Shown piece after piece: positions 1,973 through 21,831 of a stretch of DNA of 21,831 bases (positions are counted from its first letter, which is position 1; every line of letters begins with the position of its first letter). This DNA is from a virus. Under the pieces are notes generated by a model. The model made no database searches. It saw nothing but the letters and a program-made list of their open reading frames with translations, and was not told the origin of the DNA. Location of the stretch: the IMG/VR virus record IMGVR_UViG_3300046820_000562, positions 1 through 21,831 of that record, one strand, 5' to 3'. Both the position numbers and the translations under genes were made by a program.

Positions 1973-4438
1973 ATGACACGCGAAGTCACAGACAATCTGT
2001 ATATAGAACTAGGATATTTTACTCCTGAAGAGTACTATACCTATGAAGCAAACGCTGTGGCTGATTTTAGCACAGCGGCTACATTTACCTGCATTGCAGA
2101 AGCGGGGGCTGTCAAGGACTTTTCAGTGGCAATTACAGCAACTGCAACACAGACCACTGTGAACACACGTGTCATTAACTTTGTTGCACCATTGGGCACA
2201 GCATTTAATTCTACCATGACTGTAGATGCACTGCGTATCACTGAAGTAACATTGATTAGCAATGCCTACATGACCACTGACTTTGTTGTCAACCGCAGTG
2301 CCACAATCACACTTGCAAACATTGCCAATGTTAATGCGCAGGCTCAACGAACTGCTAATTTTGACTGTGGCATGGATGTAAGTGCAACGCTTACAGCAGA
2401 GTTAACACAAGTAAATTACGTTGACTTTTCAGCCACACTAAATGCTAGTGCAAGTGCAACTATTGTAGGTAAATCATTTGTCACAGCAAGCCCAGTAATA
2501 TTTAAAGGCGTGGGCAAGCCAGAAATCAATTACACAACAACAAAATTTGGAGCAGGTAGTCTTTACTTAAATGGTTCAAGTTACCTATATGCCCCTGACA
2601 AAAACACACGCTTTGATATTCCTAGTTCAGCAAGTGTAAATCCTGCTGGTCAGTTCACAGTTGAAGCATGGATATATCCAACGGCAGTTAACAGAACAGC
2701 ACTGATTGTGGGTCAATGGCAGGGCAATTCAAGTTCAACACAAGGATGGAAACTTGAACAATTCAACAGTGAAGTTACATTCACAGTTAGAACTGGCTCC
2801 AGCACTACACAAGGTATTGGCACTGGCAGTTCTACTCCATTAAATGTTGATGCGTGGAACCATATTGCTGTAGTGCGTGGAACTAACAATGGCATTACAG
2901 ACATTGCCATATGGGTTAATGGTGTTAGACGTAACTCAGCATCATGGAGTAATGCCAGTTTTGCCAACACTGGTGAAGTTAGAATAGGTTACAGTGGCGA
3001 AACAGGCACAACATATTTCCAAGGTTACATTGATGCTGTAAACTTCCGTGTTGGTTCAGCACGTTACAATACCTTTACTACTCCAATCACACTACCAACT
3101 AGTGAATATTCTACAATAAACACCACTGACAAGATACTTGTAAACTTCAATGACAATTATCTTGACCAAAGCACACCAAACACGGTCGCATTTACAGCAC
3201 AATTAAACACTGCTGTTACACAGACAACAACAGCAGAAAAAGTTATCATTGCCAGTGCCGCACTGTCATCAGCATTTACACAGACTGCAACTGCACTACG
3301 CATATTTGAATTTGATGTATTTGGATTAGATAGTGACACGGAGTTAACAGCCACAGCAGAACGCATACTGGACTTTGATGCAGGCCTAGACAGCGCCGCA
3401 ACATTATCTGTTGACAATTTAAGAACACGCAATTTTGACACAGCACTAACAACAACTGCCACAGCAACTGCTGAAGCAACACGTATACTAGAATTTGATG
3501 TATTTGGCTTTGACAGTGTTAGTGAATTAACAGCCACTGCCGCAACTGTTGCTGACTTTGATGCAGGACTTGATGTAACTGCCGCATTGTCAGTGCCTGG
3601 TGAACGCATCAAGCAATTCTCAGCACAGTTTGACACTGTAGCAAGTCAACTCACAGCGGCTGCTAAAGTTGGTCAGGCACTTGTCACCATTGAAAGTCAA
3701 TTTACACAAACAACACAGGCCACAAAGACTGCCACAGCAGATATTAGTGTTAACACTAACTTTACACAGAGTGCCAGTGCAAATCTCACACGTGACTTTG
3801 ACGCAGGACTTGACACAGCATTTACACAAACCACTGACATTGATGTAAGCAGTGGTGCTGTTGTTAATCTAAACACAGAATTTACACAGACAGCACAAGG
3901 TGGACTACAACAACAAGCACAAAGTGAACTAAACACTGTATCAACATTGGCAGTCAGTGGACAAATTGTCATTGTTGCAGACAGCACACAAACTGTCACA
4001 GCCGCACTCACAGCCAATGCTAACAGAACACGTAGCGCAACAGCACAATTTAACACTGTTGCAACGCAGTTAACAGCCACAGGCATTGTTGTTAACAAAA
4101 CAGCACTGTTATCAGCCACAACAACACTCACAGCACAGGCACAGAGAACAAGAACAACTACAGTAGCACTACAGGCATTTGCAAGTCAACTAACTGTAGG
4201 CAGTGAGCAAAGTTCAGCACAGGCACAACTTAATTCAGCATTTACACTATCATGCCAGACCATTGAAATAAGAATTGATGCTGACTTGACCTACATGGTG
4301 CCCAAGGAAACACGCAGTTACTCAATATCCGATGAATGGCGTGATGACATTATTATACCAGAGAGCCGTGCGTATATGATTGTTGAAGAAACACGTGATT
4401 ACATGCTGGCTAACACAGAAGAAACATATATAATTTAA
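1973..4438 (+). CDS. Repeat fibre protein with an inserted LamG (concanavalin A-like) domain
   Basis: The protein has 821 residues. Both flanks are long arrays of degenerate Ala/Thr-rich repeats of about 20-30 residues with recurrent cores such as DFDAGLD, SAFTQTA and QLTAT. Residues about 188-400 are different: KFGAGSLYLNG, FTVEAWIYP, WNHIAVVRG, IAIWVNGVR, GEVRIGYSG and YFQGYIDAVNFRVG are the successive strands of a LamG/laminin-G-like jelly roll, a fold that often binds glycans or proteins. After it the Ala/Thr repeats resume. The C-terminus switches to a charged, aromatic tail (TYMVPKETRSYSI, then ESRAYMIVEETRDYML), probably an attachment or trimerisation segment. The start is the ATG after AAGGAAAAAAC. 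Role inferred: an elongated virion fibre displaying a binding domain. Which virion part it joins is unknown. Confidence 0.75.
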   Translation: MTREVTDNLYIELGYFTPEEYYTYEANAVADFSTAATFTCIAEAGAVKDFSVAITATATQTTVNTRVINFVAPLGTAFNSTMTVDALRITEVTLISNAYMTTDFVVNRSATITLANIANVNAQAQRTANFDCGMDVSATLTAELTQVNYVDFSATLNASASATIVGKSFVTASPVIFKGVGKPEINYTTTKFGAGSLYLNGSSYLYAPDKNTRFDIPSSASVNPAGQFTVEAWIYPTAVNRTALIVGQWQGNSSSTQGWKLEQFNSEVTFTVRTGSSTTQGIGTGSSTPLNVDAWNHIAVVRGTNNGITDIAIWVNGVRRNSASWSNASFANTGEVRIGYSGETGTTYFQGYIDAVNFRVGSARYNTFTTPITLPTSEYSTINTTDKILVNFNDNYLDQSTPNTVAFTAQLNTAVTQTTTAEKVIIASAALSSAFTQTATALRIFEFDVFGLDSDTELTATAERILDFDAGLDSAATLSVDNLRTRNFDTALTTTATATAEATRILEFDVFGFDSVSELTATAATVADFDAGLDVTAALSVPGERIKQFSAQFDTVASQLTAAAKVGQALVTIESQFTQTTQATKTATADISVNTNFTQSASANLTRDFDAGLDTAFTQTTDIDVSSGAVVNLNTEFTQTAQGGLQQQAQSELNTVSTLAVSGQIVIVADSTQTVTAALTANANRTRSATAQFNTVATQLTATGIVVNKTALLSATTTLTAQAQRTRTTTVALQAFASQLTVGSEQSSAQAQLNSAFTLSCQTIEIRIDADLTYMVPKETRSYSISDEWRDDIIIPESRAYMIVEETRDYMLANTEETYII
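3308..3673 (+). repeat. Tandem 183-bp (61-codon) imperfect duplication inside the fibre gene
   Basis: The word gaatttgatgtatttgg occurs at 3308 and again at 3491, a period of 183 nt (61 codons). Both copies continue with the same protein pattern: EFDVFG, DS, ELTATA, DFDAGLD and then an A-A-LSV segment. Divergence is substantial, so this is an old in-frame duplication within the repeat array rather than an assembly artefact. Confidence 0.7.
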
Positions 4439-9687: not shown

Positions 9688-10542
9688 ATGGCCGGTTCAA
9701 CAACCTCTACATTAAATGATTTGCTACCAGCGATTACCGCTGAAGCAATGTTTGTTGCCAACGAGCGCAGTATCATGCGTGGTTTGGTAAAAAATTATTC
9801 TTTGCCAGCAAGCAACGGTAAAACAATTACTGTTCCTCGCTATCCAGTTCAAAGTGCAGCCGCACTAACTGAAGGTGATGAAGTTTCTAACACAGCAGTT
9901 TCTACTGATGGTGTTACATTGACTGTTTCTACAGTTGCTATCCGCACAATCATCACTGATTTGGTTCGTGCAAGCGCAGCCAGCAACGTTGTTGCTGACA
10001 TGGGCCGTTTATTCGGTGAAGCAATCGCTAAGAAAATGGACCAAGACTTATTGGCTCTTTTCAGTGGTTTCTCTACTGGTGTTGGTGGTGCAAGCACAGC
10101 AATGAGCGCCGCACTAGTTGCACAAGCAGTTGCACGTCTACGTGCTAACGCTGTTCCTTCAGATGCATTAGCATGTGTGGTTCACCCATTCGTTGCTTAT
10201 GACTTGAAGAAAGACCTAACAAACACATTTGCTAACCCAAATGCTGGTATCATCCAGAACGAAGCAATGCAAAGTGGTTATGTAGGCACATTGTTTGGTG
10301 TTCCTGTATTTGAATCTAGCAACATTGCTGACACTGGCACTGCTGGTGACTACGTTGGTGCTGTGTTCCACCGTGATGCACTTGGCCTAGCCATGATTGG
10401 TGACATCAATATTGAAACACAACGCCGTGCAAGTTTTGTTGGTGATGACATTGTTGCCAGCGCACACTATGGTGTTGGTGAATTGTATGACGGTTACGGT
10501 GTAAAAATCACTGCTGACAGTTCATTGGTTGACCCAGCCTAA
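9688..10542 (+). CDS. Major capsid protein (HK97-fold)
   Basis: The protein has 284 residues and a strong ribosome site, AAGGAGA at 9674-9680. The N-terminal helix region (ITAEAMFVANERSIMRGLV), the strand segment GKTITVPRYPVQ, the EGDEV loop, the long spine-like helix (RLFGEAIAKKMDQDLLALF) and the late FHRDALGLAMIGD and GVGELYDGYGVKI strands follow the order seen in HK97-like capsid proteins. There is no long N-terminal delta domain, which agrees with a separate scaffold gene upstream. Codons are enriched in GTT, GCT, GGT and CGT compared with neighbours, as expected for the most highly expressed gene. Confidence 0.93.
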   Translation: MAGSTTSTLNDLLPAITAEAMFVANERSIMRGLVKNYSLPASNGKTITVPRYPVQSAAALTEGDEVSNTAVSTDGVTLTVSTVAIRTIITDLVRASAASNVVADMGRLFGEAIAKKMDQDLLALFSGFSTGVGGASTAMSAALVAQAVARLRANAVPSDALACVVHPFVAYDLKKDLTNTFANPNAGIIQNEAMQSGYVGTLFGVPVFESSNIADTGTAGDYVGAVFHRDALGLAMIGDINIETQRRASFVGDDIVASAHYGVGELYDGYGVKITADSSLVDPA

Positions 10543-13060: not shown

Positions 13061-15514
13061 ATGGCTAATTTAGATTACAATGTCAATATTAACACAAATC
13101 AAGCGCAACAAAGCCTTGATAAACTTACACAAAACATTGCCAAAGTCAACACAAGTTTTGGTAATTTAAAACAGGCCATTGCTGGTATTGCATTTGGTGC
13201 TTTTATCAGTAGTGCAATTAGAACAGCAGATGCCATTGTTGACCTCAGCGAAGCAACTGGTCTAGCAGTAAGCAGTATTCAAGGATTTCGTGCTGCCGCA
13301 CAAGAGTTTGGTCTAAGTGCAGAAGGCGCAGAAAAAGGTATACTACGTTTAGTCAACAGCATTGGTGAGGCCGCAGATGGCAATGCAGGATTGCAGGAGG
13401 CATTTGGCAAAGTAGGTGTATCACTCAATGACCTTGCAAGACTTAGCGAACAACAGATATTTGAAAAAGTCCTAGCAGGACTCAGTAACTTTACCAACGC
13501 CAGTGAGCGCAGTGCAGTTGTCACACAATTACTAGGCAAAGAATTTAGAAATGTCAGCGGTGACACAGAAGGTCTACGTGCCCGTTATGAAGAATTACGT
13601 GACAGCGCACAAAGAAACGAAGCCGCTGTGCTTGCTGCCGCACAAGCATATGATAAGTTTAACACAGCAGTCAGCAGTTTTACAAATGCTATTTTAATTG
13701 CAATTAGTCCTGTTACTGATTTTATTTCAAGCCTTGACAGTCAACGCATACAAGAATTTGCCAATGAGATTGTTGCATTGACAACTGTTGCCGCTGGTAT
13801 TTTTATCTTTAGTAAAATTATAGCCCTGATGTCTGGATTTGTAACATTGATTGCCGCTGTAAAAGCAGGCACAATTGGTGCAACTTTGGCATTTGGTAAA
13901 TTTATTGTCATTGGTGCCGCAGTAGCCGCAGTGTTCTACGGAATACTCAGTGTTTTTAAATTAATAACTGGCATTGACTTGTTGACACCGATACTTAAAA
14001 CAGTTCAAGGTGCCATGGACAAAGTCAAAGAGTTCTTTGGCTTTAAACCAGAAGATAACAGTCCTGCATTTGACAAGAACAGCGAAGCCGCAAAGAAAAA
14101 TGCTGATGCAAATAGAAAAGCAGGTCAAGTTGTCCGTGAAGTCAAGGACCCATTTGAACAACTTAAAAAGAGCATTACTGGTGTTACAGAAGAATATGCA
14201 AGACTAAATCAGGCAAACATAAAACAAATTCAACTGCAAACAGATTTAATTGGCAAATCACGTGAAGACCAAGAAGTCTTAAGAGCACGTGGTGAGTTAA
14301 TCAGAAAAGAAGCAGAAGAAATTGCAAAACTTGAAGACCGCCGTAGTAAACTAACCAGTGAACAAGCACGTGCTGGTCTAGGCAAATTAATTGATGCTGA
14401 GATTGCAAAAATCCGTGAACAGACCAAGACTGACATGGATGCCACAGAGCAGGCTGTTAGAAACAGTCAAGCCCGTGTTCGTGCATTTGACCTAGAAAAA
14501 TTCAGTCGCCAAGCACAAATTGACATTGAAAAACAAATTCGTGATGTGCAATTTGAAATCTCAACAATTACCATGACTGACATGGAAAAGAAAGGTGCAC
14601 AAATTAAACGTGATGCCTTTGAACGTGCAGAAGCAGAAATTAAATCGCAAGAAGCCGCACGTGGCACATTGATGACTGAGATTGAAAAGCAAAAATACTA
14701 CGATGCTGCCAAAAAGAAAACTGATGAAGTTTTAAAATCACAAGAACGTCTTTACAACAAGAGCCGTGATTTTAGCACAGGTTGGAAACGTGCATTTAAT
14801 GACTACGTGCAGAACGCAACAAATGCGGCAAAAGTTGCAGAACAAATGTTTAGCAAGTTTACACAGGGCATTGAAGATACATTTGTTGATTTTGTCAAAA
14901 CAGGCAAGTTTGAATGGCGTGGCTTTGTCAATGATATGTTAGAAACTCTGTTACGCAGTCAAATCAAGCAAACAATGGCCAGCATATTCCAAGGCATGGG
15001 CGGCGCAACAGGCGGACTACTGGGTGATTTAGGCAATCTATTGGGTGGCGCATTTGGTGGTAATGCACCAGGAAGTAATCCACAAAATCCAATGTATGTC
15101 ATTGACCTCAGCGGAGGTGGTGGTGCGGCAGCAGGTGGTCAGCCATTCTTAACTGGCGGTAGTTCAGGCGGTGGATTCTTAAGTAGTGTTGGTAACATGG
15201 CTTCTAGTGCCTGGGAAACAATCAGTGGTATTGGTTCTAGCATTGGCAATGCCATAGGTGGTATCAGTGACTGGTTCGGTGGATTCTTTGCCAACGGTGG
15301 AACTATTCCAGCAAATAAATTTGGTATTGTTGGTGAACGTGGACCAGAATTTATTGGTGGTCCAGCAAATATTACACCAATGGGCATGGGCGGTGTTACA
15401 TACAATATTAACGCAGTAGATGCCATGAGTTTCAAAGCACTGGTAGCACAAGACCCAGGATTTATACATGCAGTGGCTATGCAAGGTGCTATGTCAGTGC
15501 CAGGGAGATATTAA
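13061..15514 (+). CDS. Tape measure protein
   Basis: The protein has 817 residues. The N-terminal 230 residues are helical (LDKLTQNIAKVNTSFGNLKQ, with a DLSEATGLAVSSIQGFR segment typical of tape measures). Residues about 236-303 form two or three hydrophobic helices (FVTLIAAVKAGTIGATLAF, VIGAAVAAVFYGILSVF), probably the membrane-passing part. Residues about 340-570 are charged coiled coil. Residues about 574-645 match the lambda gpH C-terminal pattern (MFSKFTQGIEDTFVDFVKTG, then LLRSQIKQTMASIFQ). A Gly-rich stretch and FANGGTIPANKFGIVGERGP near residue 745 close the protein, as in many tape measures. It sets tail length and probably helps DNA cross the host envelope. The length suggests a fairly short to medium tail, about 120 nm at 0.15 nm per residue. 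Confidence 0.95.
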   Translation: MANLDYNVNINTNQAQQSLDKLTQNIAKVNTSFGNLKQAIAGIAFGAFISSAIRTADAIVDLSEATGLAVSSIQGFRAAAQEFGLSAEGAEKGILRLVNSIGEAADGNAGLQEAFGKVGVSLNDLARLSEQQIFEKVLAGLSNFTNASERSAVVTQLLGKEFRNVSGDTEGLRARYEELRDSAQRNEAAVLAAAQAYDKFNTAVSSFTNAILIAISPVTDFISSLDSQRIQEFANEIVALTTVAAGIFIFSKIIALMSGFVTLIAAVKAGTIGATLAFGKFIVIGAAVAAVFYGILSVFKLITGIDLLTPILKTVQGAMDKVKEFFGFKPEDNSPAFDKNSEAAKKNADANRKAGQVVREVKDPFEQLKKSITGVTEEYARLNQANIKQIQLQTDLIGKSREDQEVLRARGELIRKEAEEIAKLEDRRSKLTSEQARAGLGKLIDAEIAKIREQTKTDMDATEQAVRNSQARVRAFDLEKFSRQAQIDIEKQIRDVQFEISTITMTDMEKKGAQIKRDAFERAEAEIKSQEAARGTLMTEIEKQKYYDAAKKKTDEVLKSQERLYNKSRDFSTGWKRAFNDYVQNATNAAKVAEQMFSKFTQGIEDTFVDFVKTGKFEWRGFVNDMLETLLRSQIKQTMASIFQGMGGATGGLLGDLGNLLGGAFGGNAPGSNPQNPMYVIDLSGGGGAAAGGQPFLTGGSSGGGFLSSVGNMASSAWETISGIGSSIGNAIGGISDWFGGFFANGGTIPANKFGIVGERGPEFIGGPANITPMGMGGVTYNINAVDAMSFKALVAQDPGFIHAVAMQGAMSVPGRY

Positions 15515-15516
15515 TT

Positions 15517-16131
15517 ATGAGTTTTCAATGGATTTTTGATAAGGCTGAAACACTAAGCATGGAACGCAAGCCTGTAGTAGCCAGCACTGTGGCCAGAGAT
15601 GGAACAGTGCGCAGTGTAAACCGTGGTAATCAACCATGGCGTTTTGATGTCAAACTGCCAGATGGTATTACCTGGACTGAACTCAGACCATATATCAGTC
15701 AAGCAGAAGCACTTGACCGTCATACCAGTGCCAGCGTTGTATTAACCAACAGTGGTTTAACATGGATGGTAGGTTATCAAGGCAATTCAGTAAACAGCAC
15801 TGGCTTTGTGGCTACAATTACTCAGGGTTCTAACACCATTACACTGACCACAAGTCCAACAACCAGCAGTGGTTATAAATTTCGTGCAGGTGACTTTATA
15901 CAATTAGGCAGCAGTGGCAAAGTCTATACAGTGGCCGCTGATGTAGCATTTAACTCAAACACAGTAGTATTGCACAGACCTGTATTAGAAAGTTCAGCCA
16001 CAGGTGTTGCACTTAGAGTAGGTGCAAACTGCACATTTACAGTGATTTGTCAACAATTTCCAAGTTGGTCATTGATGGCCCGTGACCAAGTAAGTTGGAG
16101 TGGTCCGTTTGTATTCTATGAGGTTCAATAA
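15517..16131 (+). CDS. Distal/minor tail protein
   Basis: The protein has 204 residues and is beta-rich: FDVKLPDGITWTELRPYISQ, SASVVLTNSGLTWMVGYQG, a middle beta domain (AGDFIQLGSSGKVYTVAAD) and CTFTVICQQFPSW with WSGPFVFYEVQ at the end. The middle segment resembles an oligosaccharide-binding or spacer insert. It follows the tape measure by 2 nt, with GGGAGAT inside the tape measure 3' end serving as ribosome site, and overlaps the next gene by TAATG. By position it is the distal tail ring or an M-like minor tail protein; I cannot place it in a family more exactly. Confidence 0.65.
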   Translation: MSFQWIFDKAETLSMERKPVVASTVARDGTVRSVNRGNQPWRFDVKLPDGITWTELRPYISQAEALDRHTSASVVLTNSGLTWMVGYQGNSVNSTGFVATITQGSNTITLTTSPTTSSGYKFRAGDFIQLGSSGKVYTVAADVAFNSNTVVLHRPVLESSATGVALRVGANCTFTVICQQFPSWSLMARDQVSWSGPFVFYEVQ

Positions 16132-16739
16132 TGAGCATTGACCTTAGCAATTATACCTCAGTAGGCACTGCATTGATTGCCGCAATTACTGTGGAAAATT
16201 ATAAACAAAATGCCGGAGATCCTTACACCAGCACTGTGCTAAGATTCAGTGACTACAATTATCCATTGGTCATTGACGGCAACACTTATCTTGGACTGGG
16301 TAAATTTGTTGGCATTACACCAACTACCAGTGAATTAAAATCAAGCACAGGACAGATTACAGTTACAATCAGCGGTATTCCTAACACAGCAATCAGCGAA
16401 ATTATAAATTCAAGGATTAAAGGTTCGCCTATTGAAGTCTATCGTGTAATATTTGACAGTCAAACCAGACAAGTGTTAAGTATTGAAGGCAATCCAGCAG
16501 GTAGATTTTTTGGTTATGTTAGCAACTACACCCTAGATGAAGAATACGACATTCAAACACGCACAGCATCAAACACTATTGCAATGATTTGTGCCAGCAC
16601 ACAAGAATTTTTAGAAAACAAAGTCACTGGACGTAAAACAAATCCTACCAGTCAAAAAAGTTTTTATCCCGGTGATGCTAGTATGAACCGTGTGCCAAGT
16701 CTAGTAGGTGCAAGTTTTAATTTTGGAGTTCCTAAATGA
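16131..16739 (+). CDS. Minor tail protein, DUF2163/lambda gpL-like
   Basis: The protein has 202 residues. Visible features are an N-terminal beta domain (TVLRFSDYNYPLVIDGNTYL, then FVGITPTTSELKSSTGQITV), the segment ISGIPNTAISEIINSRIKGS, VEVYRV-like strands (IEVYRVIFDSQT), GRFFGYVSNYTLDEEYD, and a C-terminal part with ICASTQEFLENKVTGRKTN ending in PSLVGASFNFGVP. This order is typical of DUF2163-like and gpL-like proteins of the tail tip that connect the distal ring to the hub. It overlaps both neighbours by 1-4 nt, so the tail-tip proteins are probably made in fixed ratio. Confidence 0.7.
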   Translation: MSIDLSNYTSVGTALIAAITVENYKQNAGDPYTSTVLRFSDYNYPLVIDGNTYLGLGKFVGITPTTSELKSSTGQITVTISGIPNTAISEIINSRIKGSPIEVYRVIFDSQTRQVLSIEGNPAGRFFGYVSNYTLDEEYDIQTRTASNTIAMICASTQEFLENKVTGRKTNPTSQKSFYPGDASMNRVPSLVGASFNFGVPK

Positions 16740-17515
16740 GTTTTTTAGACAGCGTATTAGACTTTGGTAAAAGTGCTGTTGGATTTTTAACTGGCAACAG
16801 CATTGGTGGACAGATTGCCAGAACTGCACTCACAGGCTACGCACTAAACAAAGTTACAAACAGCGTAAACAGAGAAAATGCAACAACAGAAAGCAAACGT
16901 ATTGACCCTGGTGTGCGATTACAGGTCAACCCTAGTCCAGAACACAGAATACCTGTGGTCTACGGTCGTGCATTGGTTGGTGGCATTATCACAGATGCGT
17001 GGATGACCAACAATGACCAAACCATGTATTTTGTTTTGACAATTTGTGAACGAACAGGCAACACAGGACTGGGCAGTGGTGCGGCATCAACTTTTGCATT
17101 TAAAAATATCTACTGGGACGGTAACAGAGTAAGTTTTCAAAGTGATGCAGTTACAGTAAGTGGATGGAGTGACCGTGCAGGACAAACAGACACAAATGCC
17201 AATGGTAAAATTAAAATATGGTGCTATGGTGGTAATTCAACAACACCAGTTGCTCCAAGTCCTTATACACCAAGTTCAGCATTGCCCAACGCATACAATA
17301 TCATGCCAAACTGGACAACTTCACACACAATGAATGACCTTGTGTTTGCCATTGTCAGAGTTGACTATAATGCAGAAGCAAATGTAAAAAACCTAGGCAA
17401 CATTAAGTTTGACATAGAAAATTCTATGAATCAACCTGGTGACTGCTTATACGATTATATGACTAACACCAGATACGGTGCTGGTATTGACCCAGCGGAG
17501 ATTTACGCACAATGA
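16736..17515 (+). CDS. Tail hub protein, N-terminal part (gpJ-like)
   Basis: The protein has 259 residues. After a hydrophobic Gly/Ala-rich N-terminus (SAVGFLTGNSIGGQIARTAL) it has the hallmark IPVVYGRALVGGIITDAWM near residue 72, followed by a beta-rich part and the conserved-looking end NIKFDIENSMNQPGDCLYDY, then MTNTRYGAGIDPAEI. These match the first third of gpJ-type host-specificity or hub proteins, where the chain normally runs on for hundreds of residues. Here it stops after EIYAQ, and the next ORF starts at an overlapping ATGA with what looks like the continuation (SLQDLNSYGTTNVTYTD). It is thus probably one of three pieces of the hub. Confidence 0.78.
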   Translation: MSFLDSVLDFGKSAVGFLTGNSIGGQIARTALTGYALNKVTNSVNRENATTESKRIDPGVRLQVNPSPEHRIPVVYGRALVGGIITDAWMTNNDQTMYFVLTICERTGNTGLGSGAASTFAFKNIYWDGNRVSFQSDAVTVSGWSDRAGQTDTNANGKIKIWCYGGNSTTPVAPSPYTPSSALPNAYNIMPNWTTSHTMNDLVFAIVRVDYNAEANVKNLGNIKFDIENSMNQPGDCLYDYMTNTRYGAGIDPAEIYAQ

Positions 17516-19674
17516 ATAGTTTACAAGACCTTAACAGTTACGGCACTACTAATGTTACATACACAGATAGCCGGGACAGTGATGTAAAATTTGACCGTGC
17601 TATTCCAACTAATGCTACAGTGGAATTAGAACGCAAAGATTCACACACAGTGCCTGTGGGCATTAACATTGAAGAAGTTATAGGCACACCTGGTATTGTT
17701 TATACAGTAAATCTCAGCAGTAACACTGATGCTACACTAACATGGCCTAGTTTACCAGCAGGTGTTACAGCATCAACACCCAGCACAGGAATCTATCAGT
17801 TAACTGGCATTGATAGTGTCAGTGATTGGAATCAAGTAAAATCTCCAACAATCAGTCTAGCAGTTGGTTACACAGGTGAATTTACATATCAGGCAACAAT
17901 TACTTACAATTCAACACAATCACGTTACTGGGAAGTTGCTGTCACAGTGGCTGAAATTGTTTTCTTTGAAGATCCAGCACCTGAGTTTTTCTTTGCCAAT
18001 GGTGCAGTAAACTTGCTAGACCCTAGTGAGTTAATTACAGACAAAGCAGGCAATTTTACAGTAACATTAACACCCAGCAACACTGGGGCAATTACTTCAG
18101 TGGCCAGTGCTATTGCGGATCCAACACCAGTGGTCAGTTTTAACGGCACTACAAAAGTTACCACACTCACTGGCACAAACGCACAGGTAAAAACTTACCT
18201 ACAAAATCTAAACATTACCTATGCCAGTGGTGCTACCACAGCATTTAACATGGTCTATGATGGCGTCAGTGATAACGCAGACGCCAGTGCTGACACAGTA
18301 ACGCAGGTGCATACACCGACTCTGTATTTGACCAAAGTTGCAGGTGCCGCAGAATACACAACTGCTGTTGTCAGTGACATTGAAAACTATCCAACAATCA
18401 ACAATATTGTGGCGGATCCAAACGCATTGTTGACCAACACTTACACATTAACAGTTACACCAAATGATCCTAGTATCATTGACACTATCACTGCCACAGG
18501 CTGGCAAGAATATCCAGTGCTCACTGCTGGAGATGGTGGCATCACTGGTGAAATGGTTAAAAAATTAAGAGCAACAGCCAGTAGTGTTAGCAGACTTTAT
18601 ACCTATGACAGTGGCAGTAATGATGGCTATGACAGAATAGATGGTTGGAATCCAACAAGAGGAACCAGCAATAAAGTCTTAGATGATTTTGACATTAGCA
18701 GAGATACTTCAGTTAGAGTTGCAGTATCCAGTGGAGGCAGTGGTGCAATTTATTCTTTGGTCAGTGGAACAGAAACAAGTCTAACATTAGCAGGCGCAGG
18801 CGCTGTGAGTTTAAACTACAATGGAACAGTAATGGTTGTTTCAGGAACTAACTTGTTTGCACTATACACTCGCAGTGGTTCAACATGGACACAGCGTTGG
18901 ACTGCATCAACTACTGTTACTGCAGGCAACACAGTCAGAGTCAGTGGTAATGGTCAATATTTTGCCATAGGTGACCAACAGTTAAATTCAGAAACTGGTC
19001 GTGTTAGAGTTTACAATTGGGATGGCACAAACGCCACACTACAGGCCACATTTACTGGTGATAGCACTGATGATAATTTTGGTTCAGCATTAGAAATCAA
19101 TGATGCTGGTGATGAATTGTTTATTGGCGCACATGATGACAACACCACTGGTCGTGCATTTTATTACACAAGAAATTCTACCACTTGGACACTGACGCAA
19201 ACAATCAATCCATATTATACCAGCAACATAGACTTTGGTGGTGACAAAGACAGTCCTACATATGATTTTTACATTGACCAATCTTATGATGGTAACTATC
19301 TAGTAATACCAGCAAATTTAACTTTGTTCATTTACAAAAAAGTCAGCGGTGTATGGACACTATGGGACCACTATAATACAAGTGGACTTGGTGTGTTAAA
19401 TGACAATGGTCAAAACTTGTATTTTACAAATCTTGTTCGTGCTAACAATGCCTGGGTTGGAACATCAACACTGGCAACAACAGGTGTAAGTTTTAACACA
19501 TCAACCAAAGTGTTGACATTTACAGGCAGTAAATCAAGAATAAACACAGCACTAGCCACACTGCAATTGACTTCAACTAGTCAGCCAGACTGGCCATTTA
19601 CCTTGACATATGCAGTGACAACACCAGCCAGTGCCACAGAAAGTCGCACACAGACTGTGAACAATATAGGATAA
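17512..19674 (+). CDS. Hub-associated Ig-like repeat protein with inserted beta-propeller
   Basis: The protein has 720 residues. Residues about 1-30 (SLQDLNSYGTTNVTYTD) look like the continuation of the upstream gpJ-like chain. Then come Ig/cadherin-like repeats: about 45-145 (IVYTVNLSSNTDATLTWPSL), about 150-265 (NFTVTLTPSNTGAITSV, then TYLQNLNITYASG) and a third beginning TYTLTVTPNDPSIIDTI near 305. The third is interrupted at about 353-645 by an FG-GAP-like propeller with blades such as VRVSGNGQYFAIGDQQ, GRVRVYNWDGTNATLQATFT and DNFGSALEINDAGDELFIGA. The Ig-like repeat resumes as TGVSFNTSTKVLTFTGSKS and ends at NIG. No catalytic motif is seen. Role inferred: host-binding appendage of the tail tip. 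Confidence 0.75.
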   Translation: MNSLQDLNSYGTTNVTYTDSRDSDVKFDRAIPTNATVELERKDSHTVPVGINIEEVIGTPGIVYTVNLSSNTDATLTWPSLPAGVTASTPSTGIYQLTGIDSVSDWNQVKSPTISLAVGYTGEFTYQATITYNSTQSRYWEVAVTVAEIVFFEDPAPEFFFANGAVNLLDPSELITDKAGNFTVTLTPSNTGAITSVASAIADPTPVVSFNGTTKVTTLTGTNAQVKTYLQNLNITYASGATTAFNMVYDGVSDNADASADTVTQVHTPTLYLTKVAGAAEYTTAVVSDIENYPTINNIVADPNALLTNTYTLTVTPNDPSIIDTITATGWQEYPVLTAGDGGITGEMVKKLRATASSVSRLYTYDSGSNDGYDRIDGWNPTRGTSNKVLDDFDISRDTSVRVAVSSGGSGAIYSLVSGTETSLTLAGAGAVSLNYNGTVMVVSGTNLFALYTRSGSTWTQRWTASTTVTAGNTVRVSGNGQYFAIGDQQLNSETGRVRVYNWDGTNATLQATFTGDSTDDNFGSALEINDAGDELFIGAHDDNTTGRAFYYTRNSTTWTLTQTINPYYTSNIDFGGDKDSPTYDFYIDQSYDGNYLVIPANLTLFIYKKVSGVWTLWDHYNTSGLGVLNDNGQNLYFTNLVRANNAWVGTSTLATTGVSFNTSTKVLTFTGSKSRINTALATLQLTSTSQPDWPFTLTYAVTTPASATESRTQTVNNIG

Positions 19675-19678
19675 TTTT

Positions 19679-21703
19679 ATGCCAACACTAAGTCAACCAC
19701 AATTTTTAATTAATGGTGTCATTGATACAGAAAAACCAGTGATGCAAAATATGCAAACAATAGCCAGTGCCGCAGGAGCATGGGTTACCTATGACACAAA
19801 CGCTGGCAAATGGTCAGTGATTATTAACAGAGAAGTGCAGGCAGGTTACTTTAGTCAACGCACCGCAAAAACTATCACAGCCAACGGCAATGCCGCAGTA
19901 TCAACAGCACAGAAAAAATTTGGTGCTGGCAGTGTTGTGTTTGATGGCACAGGTGATGACCTAGTAGTAGCCAGCAATGCGGACTTTGCATTTGGCAACG
20001 GTGATTTTACTGTTGAGTGCTGGGTATATCGCAGTAATGCCAGCAGAGTAGAATGGATTGCACACTGGGGAACCATTGGTGCAAACTACGCAGGTGCCTT
20101 ATATGCCAGCGGCGCAAATTTAATCTACGCAACCAGTGGCACTACCAGAATCACAGGCAGTAATGTATTGCCCACAGCCAATACTTGGTATCATGTGGCA
20201 GTTAGCCGTAGCAGTGGCGTTACTAGATTATTTGTCAACGGCACACAGCGTGGCAGCAGTTACACTGATGCAAATACCTACGCACAAGGTCTAGTAAAAA
20301 TAGGCAGTTATTCAAATGCAAACTATTTCCTTGGCTACATTGACGAAATTCGTCTAAGTAATTCTGCCAGATACACTGGTGCATTTACATCAAGTTCAAC
20401 TGCATTTGAAAATGATGCAAACACAGTATTGTTAGTTCATGCCAACACTGACATCACAGATGACACATTGACCTATCAAACTGGCATTGCAAAAATTTAT
20501 GATGACAGTAACATTATAGGCAATATCACTATAAGTGGCACAGGCATCACAGAACTCTACAACAAAGTTCAACTGCAATTTCCTCACAAAGACATTGAAG
20601 ACCAAACTGACTATATCACTTGGTCAATACCCACAGAAGATAGATTTACCAATGAACAAGACCAAACACTGAACATTGAATTTGACTGCATCAATGACCC
20701 AGTGCAGGCAGAGTTGTTGGCATTGCGTGAATTAAAACAAAGCAGAGTTGATAAAATTATACAGTTTACCACGGACTACACCAGTCTTGGCATCAAAGCA
20801 GGTGACCTAATTGAAGTAACAAATACTGCACTTGGGTTTGTCAGCAAAGTGTTCCGCATTGTCAGTATACAGGAAGATGACATACAAGACGGCAACTTAA
20901 TTTTTAGCATTACTGCACTGGAATATGATGCCAATGTGTATTCAACTGCGGACCTTACACGTTTTACCAGAAGTATCAGCAATGGCATTGTCAGCAAAGG
21001 TGCAAACACAACAATTACAGCACTAGACAATCAGGCAAGTTTAAAAGTTAACACTAGCCCAGCGGCTGCAAGTCAAGGCTTGGGTATGTTGTTCAATGCC
21101 AATGCTGGCCTATGGGTGTTAAATCAAGCAGGTAAACTATTGACCATGCCTAGTTATGGTGGCTCAAACTTAGGTGCTGTAATTTCATGGACTTTTGACA
21201 CTGGTCAGGACTTGGATATTCGTTGCCGTGTGTATCAACCAAATCTAGGACAAAACAGCATTAACCAATATCTAGGCTACACTGGTGGTGCAGGAGACGT
21301 TACGCAATGGCCTCCAACAGGCACTGCTATCATTACCTGGGGTGGTGACAACACAGGCACTGGCGAAGAAACTGTTTTGGTAAACATTGGTGCTTTCAAA
21401 GCCGCTTATCCAACACAGCCTTATTTGATTGTAGAATGTCGTGGTAACTGGTTTGACACTCCTGGTGAAACTCCTGTGTTGCTGTCAGCAGCCATATATC
21501 AAGGCGGAACATTTAGTCCCAGTGGTTTTGGATTTACCAATACAGGATTTAGTGCCAAGCGTGTAGTTACAGGTTTGGAAATTTATGTCAATGTCAATGA
21601 CACTGATACTGCTGGTCAAAACGTCGGTGAATTGATGGGTTACTTTGTCTATGACATTGCCAACAACACAGCACAATTCACCAACGATGTAAGTTACCTA
21701 TAA
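19679..21703 (+). CDS. Tail hub protein, C-terminal part with inserted LamG domain (gpJ-like)
   Basis: The protein has 674 residues. The start SQPQFLINGVIDTEKPVMQN, then MQTIASAAGAWVTYDTNAGKW, is typical of the middle of gpJ-like hub chains, not of a protein N-terminus. Residues about 70-258 are a LamG-like domain (KFGAGSVVFDG, FTVECWVYRS, TWYHVAVSRSSGVTRLFVNG, YFLGYIDEIRLSNSARYTG). Hub sequence then resumes: NKVQLQFPHKDIEDQTDYIT, RVDKIIQFTTDYTSLGIKAG, then KVFRIVSIQEDD. The last 230 residues form beta-rich tip domains (ISWTFDTGQDLDIRCRVYQP). AGGA about 8 nt upstream can serve as ribosome site; the gene starts 4 nt after the previous stop. Confidence 0.8.
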   Translation: MPTLSQPQFLINGVIDTEKPVMQNMQTIASAAGAWVTYDTNAGKWSVIINREVQAGYFSQRTAKTITANGNAAVSTAQKKFGAGSVVFDGTGDDLVVASNADFAFGNGDFTVECWVYRSNASRVEWIAHWGTIGANYAGALYASGANLIYATSGTTRITGSNVLPTANTWYHVAVSRSSGVTRLFVNGTQRGSSYTDANTYAQGLVKIGSYSNANYFLGYIDEIRLSNSARYTGAFTSSSTAFENDANTVLLVHANTDITDDTLTYQTGIAKIYDDSNIIGNITISGTGITELYNKVQLQFPHKDIEDQTDYITWSIPTEDRFTNEQDQTLNIEFDCINDPVQAELLALRELKQSRVDKIIQFTTDYTSLGIKAGDLIEVTNTALGFVSKVFRIVSIQEDDIQDGNLIFSITALEYDANVYSTADLTRFTRSISNGIVSKGANTTITALDNQASLKVNTSPAAASQGLGMLFNANAGLWVLNQAGKLLTMPSYGGSNLGAVISWTFDTGQDLDIRCRVYQPNLGQNSINQYLGYTGGAGDVTQWPPTGTAIITWGGDNTGTGEETVLVNIGAFKAAYPTQPYLIVECRGNWFDTPGETPVLLSAAIYQGGTFSPSGFGFTNTGFSAKRVVTGLEIYVNVNDTDTAGQNVGELMGYFVYDIANNTAQFTNDVSYL

Positions 21704-21719
21704 TATTTTTCACTGTCCT

Positions 21720-21741
21720 TGCACTTGAATAAGTAAGTGCA
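21720..21741 (+). other. Hairpin overlapping the start codon of the last gene
   Basis: TGCACTT (21720-21726) pairs with AAGTGCA (21735-21741), where the last A is the first base of the ATG at 21741. The loop is 8 nt. An alternative smaller stem (ACTT with AAGT at 21731-21734) is possible because AAGT is repeated. It could limit start-codon access or act as an RNA processing site; a TATAAT at 21699-21704 lies upstream. Confidence 0.45.
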
Positions 21742-21831
21742 TGGACAACGATGAATTTCTAAAACGCCTAAGTGAAGTCAGTGAATGGCACAGACCCATG
21801 CTGGGTCCAAATGGTTGTTATAGTGTCAATA
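21741..21831 (+). CDS. Hypothetical protein, 5' end only (runs off the window)
   Basis: The frame is open from the ATG at 21741 to the window edge, giving 30 residues: MDNDEFLKRLSEVSEWHRP, then MLGPNGCYSVN. The first 16 residues are helical and charged. There is no strong ribosome site; the ATG is partly inside a hairpin. The sequence is too short to assign a function. It is transcribed in the same direction as the tail genes and could be the first gene of a new unit. Confidence 0.65.
   Translation, partial: MDNDEFLKRLSEVSEWHRPMLGPNGCYSVN

Follow-up and report, generated by a model that had tools for sequence, protein, structure and literature searches.

The DNA analysed here, referred to as the window, is an entire viral contig, linear and 21,831 bases long. 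A tape measure gene (13061-15514) is followed by genes for a distal tail protein (15517-16131) and a gpL-like protein (16131-16739, plus strand), and then by three intact ORFs of 259, 720 and 674 aa, all on the plus strand: ORF1 (16736-17515), ORF2 (17512-19674) and ORF3 (19679-21703). ORF1 thus lies after the tape measure and distal tail genes, the gene position of a gpJ/pb3-type hub. A first-pass annotation, made from the sequence alone, had proposed that a gpJ-like tail hub is spread over these three ORFs. The coordinates and sequence fragments that it quoted were found as given, as were its two junctions, an ATGA at 17512-17515 (plus strand) in which the ORF2 start overlaps the ORF1 stop, and a TAA at 19672-19674 followed after 4 nt by the ATG at 19679. 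The gpL-like product matches phrog_2048 (tail protein, E 5e-30) and, weakly and below the cut-off, PF09931 (Gp84_N, a baseplate hub attachment domain); from these matches and its gene position it may be an HDI-type, N-terminal attachment protein of the hub, and a search for a solved relative for checking the HDI assignment found none. Sequences resembling promoters or terminators occur in the region at no more than chance level, which agrees with a single operon. At the left end of the window, an 821-aa ORF (1973-4438) has no PHROG match.

ORF1 gives a weak match to gpJ (phrog_31, E 2e-5) and is 64% identical to ORF1 of the relative L003. The family profile A6, which includes the window ORF1, matches T5 pb3 residues 263-729 with an E value of 2e-25, T1 with 4e-11 and Ur-lambda with 2e-4. 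The evidence for a hub fold comes from a model of a fused relative, L066, and not of the window chains (pTM 0.76; pLDDT 81 on average and about 90 across the hub region); its best Foldseek match is T5 pb3 (E 1e-23), lambda gpJ is matched with E 6e-20, and there are further matches to T1, GTA, JBD30, Chi, T4 gp27 and VgrG. The single chain of L066 carries the segments of the window ORFs contiguously (..YGAGIHEDDIDQTTLTALNTFSLTGVDYEDQGTGVETLADRYQINGLLDT..), which bears out the first-pass statement that they are elsewhere parts of one chain. In the model, the piece equivalent to the hub-derived start of ORF2 is a helix (residues 255-265) and a strand (residues 269-273), and the start of ORF3 falls near a strand at residues 289-291. 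Alignment to T5 pb3 places the first break at about residue 478 and the ORF3 start, from which the ORF3 part of the family profile aligns, at about residue 525; the gp27-like half of pb3 starts at about residue 530 (PMC7291167). Judged from this alignment and the published pb3 structure (PMC10038345), ORF1, ending ..YGAGIDPAEIYAQ, would be the first hub chain, on the HDII-plus-insertion side, and ORF3, starting ..QFLINGVIDTEKPV, the last, on the HDIII/HDIV side. Together the three ORFs correspond to one T5 pb3/lambda gpJ-type hub chain. HDII, HDIII and HDIV are here not in one polypeptide; the three ORFs have independent initiation signals. Comparison of the genes shows a common origin with single-chain hubs.

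Hub layouts among related phages

A search with ORF1 retrieved eight viral contigs, all broken at the same place after ..YGAGI. With two custom profile HMMs we classified 215 loci, some of which are one contig counted repeatedly, as fused (78), two ORFs (17), three ORFs (70), four ORFs (11), split, the final part lying beyond the contig (28) or cut (11); removal of near-identical ORF1 cores left 113 rows (53 three-ORF, 43 fused, nine two-ORF and eight four-ORF). The two-ORF layout consists of ORF1 and then an LxxLN helix plus the remainder, and in two such loci (L041 and L068) the second ORF opens with MKTLAQLNTYS.. and runs directly into ..RYQINGLLDT. It is precisely the junction of the MKTLAQLNTYS-type and RYQINGLLDT elements that the insert occupies in three-ORF phages, with ORF3 beginning just before the latter element, and in four-ORF phages both middle ORFs open with the same helix motif. 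A -4 overlap, like that at the first window junction, is the commonest junction type among relatives. The split itself goes beyond chance, being shared by 70 non-redundant lineages with ORF1 identities down to about 40%.

Comparison with related phages, which the first-pass annotation had suggested, finds the hub as one ORF in the fused relatives and reveals two-ORF intermediates, neither form having been seen in that annotation; it identifies the window ORFs as pieces of one chain and not as the ordinary stand-alone proteins that the annotation had also considered. Its remark that such a hub would be uncommon needs qualifying, in that a large clade of uncultured phages has this arrangement as its norm, and multi-chain hubs broken elsewhere are known (lambda, RcGTA; PMC10721106). 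No prophage or genome relatives were found in GTDB contigs, and phage records returned only distant single-chain hubs or LamG matches of cyanophage wedge proteins. The split-hub phages are a large group, uncultured and probably aquatic. Two pairs of near-identical relatives, L159 (2197-4037) with L160 (8719-10560) and L017 (6576-10140) with L015 (6837-9758), appear to differ in the reading frame of ORF2 or ORF3, a difference that could be either contig errors or real variation.

On a tree of the 113 ORF1 cores, weakly supported in large part (35 of 110 inner branches open), the hub layout changes state 7 times, against a mean of 48.0 for shuffled states. The window falls in a clade of 29 rows, all of them three-ORF (support 99*), and the four-ORF form is a single group (98*). 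Distant single-chain hubs, those of P19250A and Kolga included, lie outside; the basal branches hold the fused and two-ORF forms, within which three-ORF forms are nested. Since the outgroups are fused, we infer that the order ran from fused to split; at the level of sequence, the tree shows a stepwise split from one to two, three and four ORFs. Three fused loci (L107, L157 and L212) fall inside the three-ORF part of the tree, a placement for which re-fusion, recombination or misplacement are possible explanations.

Initiation signals at the breaks

The start of ORF2 is preceded, 11 nt before its ATG, by a GGAG Shine-Dalgarno (SD) sequence (17497-17500, plus strand) that lies inside ORF1, within its A-E codons. 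In 58 split lineages ORF1 ends in x-E-I/V, and the Glu codon is GAG in 55 of the 58, against a background of 43/445; the four-fold codon before it has G in third position in 44 of 48 cases, against 8.2% in the background (P 2e-43). A cGGAGat motif is thus formed upstream of the next start. This codon choice is not demanded by the amino acids and so points to RNA-level selection for initiation. An SD-like tetramer is present at the ORF1 end in 62 of 70 split lineages but in only 1 of 38 fused ones. The ORF3 start of the window has an AGGA Shine-Dalgarno sequence 7 nt before its ATG (19668-19671, plus strand), and at ORF3 starts of the family an SD match of at least 4 nt was found in 48 of 50 cases, against 599 of 2100 control ATGs.

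ORF2 and the make-up of the hub

ORF2 (17512-19674) has its own start and stop and opens with a hub-derived helix and strand (NSLQDLNSYGTTNVTYTD; 17515-17568, plus strand), whose Leu3, Leu6 and Asn7 are conserved in fused, two-ORF and three-ORF lineages and in both ORFs of four-ORF lineages. In the AlphaFold model this N-terminal helix is followed by an Ig-like module (residues 21-150; 17572-17961, plus strand), which has pLDDT values mostly of 90-97 and is conserved in 28 ORF2s, then by a second Ig-like domain and by a β-propeller (residues ~390-640; 18679-19431, plus strand; WD40-type Foldseek matches) that is apparently inserted into a third. The model and the matches agree with the first-pass description of about 2.1 kb of Ig-like and propeller sequence between the second and third hub segments. 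Pfam and PHROGs searches with ORF2 gave nothing convincing; an FG-GAP_2 domain is present in ORF2 of relatives. ORF3 carries an insertion of its own in a hub domain (19835-20482, plus strand), unseen in the first-pass annotation and absent in the aligned relatives, with a LamG domain (PF13385, E 9e-18, Pfam match at 19952-20371). The insertion sits within VIIN..IAKIYDD and its LamG resembles the LamG domains of cyanophage baseplate wedge proteins; other relatives have LamG in ORF2.

Across the three-ORF lineages ORF1 and ORF3 diverge in step. The identity of the distal part of ORF2 is flat at 0.27-0.28 (shuffled, 0.22) for pairs with an ORF1 identity below 0.8, and low values recur between close relatives: L074 and L069 share 0.89 in ORF1 and 0.98 in ORF3 but 0.28 in distal ORF2, and L084 and L067 share 0.86, 0.86 and 0.38, respectively. 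On sequence comparison, both pairs look like replacement or very fast change. The length of complete ORF2s ranges from 312 to 1359 aa, and the cargo is LamG, FG-GAP or Gly-rich depending on the phage. In the three-ORF and four-ORF layouts it is a middle gene that bears this fast-changing and seemingly exchangeable set of domains. Inverted repeats around ORF2, as a sign of a mobile element, were sought, and the matches were short or imperfect and did not lie at the ORF2 ends. The helix motif is retained in the 53 three-ORF lineages (L 0.91, L 1.0, N 0.94), and the identity of its 6-residue core is 0.57-0.90, compared with 0.27-0.45 for distal ORF2.

We favor, with a probability of roughly 0.75, a reading in which one pb3/gpJ-type hub is made as separate, translationally coupled chains and ORF2 is a helix-anchored accessory chain; the first-pass annotation had likewise put forward a hub of separate chains whose accessory module is encoded by an ORF of its own. 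The HDII side would come from ORF1 and the HDIII/HDIV side from ORF3, while ORF2 would open with the hub's own helix-strand and continue into Ig-like domains and a propeller. The separate chains would assemble non-covalently into a trimeric hub, in which the ORF2 helix-strand would take the place that it has in fused hubs and so anchor ORF2 at the tip. ORF2 itself would be an exchangeable, surface-exposed and probably host-binding cassette; host binding is suggested by the pattern of variability and by the use of such cargo domains in known adhesins.

Less probable, yet the strongest of the alternatives, is that ORF1 and ORF3 alone make up the hub and that ORF2 is an independent, inserted adhesin gene whose helix is an inherited remnant and whose product sits elsewhere on the tip. 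The hypervariability of ORF2 fits this account, as do the two motif ORFs of four-ORF phages, which exceed one site per hub subunit, and the low confidence of the ORF2 helix when folded alone (pLDDT 64-74), although low confidence in a lone helix may equally be expected of a docking element, of which it is no proof. It would, however, leave ORF1 and ORF3 without the helix-strand that the fused and two-ORF hubs of the family keep between them, and the helix motif has been retained while the remainder of ORF2 was replaced.

Programmed frameshifting or readthrough, which would also yield one long hub protein, is very improbable. The -1 relation at 58 of 70 junctions and the presence of some overlap (median 25 nt) would suit such a mechanism, but +1 or 0 relations occur in other lineages, overlap with the preceding ORF is absent for 29 of 50 ORF3s, and the selected SD sequences indicate fresh initiation. 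The first-pass annotation had seen no slippery heptamer at the junction; there is none there, nor is an in-frame -1 slippery heptamer present in any of the 58 lineages with a -1 relation, and frameshifting was rejected on this ground. With no slippery heptamers and with junction frames that vary, separate translation of ORF2 and ORF3 is, judged from sequence, all but certain.

That the breaks stem from a mistake in sequencing or assembly, or from the breakdown of a gene that was once whole, is extremely improbable: the window is a single contig and isolated frameshift-like differences occur in the L159/L160 and L015/L017 pairs, but the same breaks are found in 70 non-redundant lineages and the internal SD is under codon-level selection. 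An indel that rejoins the frames, which the first-pass annotation had named as an alternative, is excluded, given breaks so deeply conserved and internal ribosome-binding sites under selection, and assembly error was rejected for the family on the recurrence of the breaks across the classified loci and the tree. A self-splicing intron or intein, suggested by an insert exactly between two hub elements of a conserved gene, is just as remote, because ORF2 has its own start and stop and ORF3 its own SD, while Rfam gave no match up to E 1 in 16700-21831 and nothing above the gathering score in seven relatives (an intron was rejected on this result), and Pfam and PHROGs gave no intein or endonuclease match in ORF2.

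Known multi-chain hubs and possible exchange of tip modules

T5 pb3 has the same hub fold and order as the window ORFs and is one chain (PMC10038345, PMC10721106), whereas the window encodes the same stretch as three chains with accessory domains. Lambda gpL, gpI and gpJ together are the equivalent of T5 pb3, and RcGTA is similar (PMC10721106); a 2026 paper describes the hub subunit as one polypeptide in T5 and most phages and up to three in lambda, and the lambda-type break as a focus of hypervariability (PMC13243795). The hubs of lambda (gpL/gpI/gpJ) and RcGTA (gp13/gp15), whose chains assemble non-covalently, are likewise divided among adjacent genes. Their breaks lie between HDI/HDII-insertion and the rest; a break of this type is probably also present in the window, where the gpL-like gene precedes ORF1, but here a further break divides the gpJ part itself (HDII / helix / HDIII-HDIV). 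The helix-tagged accessory ORF, duplicated in one clade, is a feature of the window family as set against lambda and RcGTA. A search of the open-access literature with limited terms found no report of this break site, only hub structures and reviews, and the site appears to be new, as do the helix-tagged cassette and the duplication of that cassette.

The nearest cultured phages found were Methylophilaceae phage P19250A (ORF1, 34%) and pelagiphages (capsid, ~55%); unlike that of the window, the P19250A gpJ and the hubs of pelagiphages HTVC111P and HTVC202P are single ORFs. The major capsid protein of the window (9688-10542) is ~55% identical to those of HTVC026P, HTVC111P, HTVC112P and HTVC202P, in all of which one ORF encodes the hub, and this likeness hints at an alphaproteobacterial host. 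In pelagiphages and DSL-LC06 an annotated acyl- or acetyltransferase gene separates the gpL-like region from the hub gene (L216, 7240-7647; L219, 8453-8839; L220, 7401-7814; L217, 12980-13465); the window has none there.

Sealing and opening of the tail are the work of the hub, a conserved machine. If the break lies at a site of adhesive insertion, a module could be exchanged by replacing one entire gene, and the phage could display something different on an unchanged tail-tip core. Because the fused, two-ORF, three-ORF and four-ORF layouts all survive among relatives, one can trace how a split protein evolved step by step; annotators, too, should take note that ORFs of this kind belong to a single hub. 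We also speculate, tentatively, that the helix-strand is a transferable docking tag, so that tagged genes plug into the gap between two separately made hub chains, and the two tagged proteins of four-ORF phages would either vie for the three trimer sites or divide them between themselves. If this were true, mixed tips on one phage could broaden or switch host recognition.
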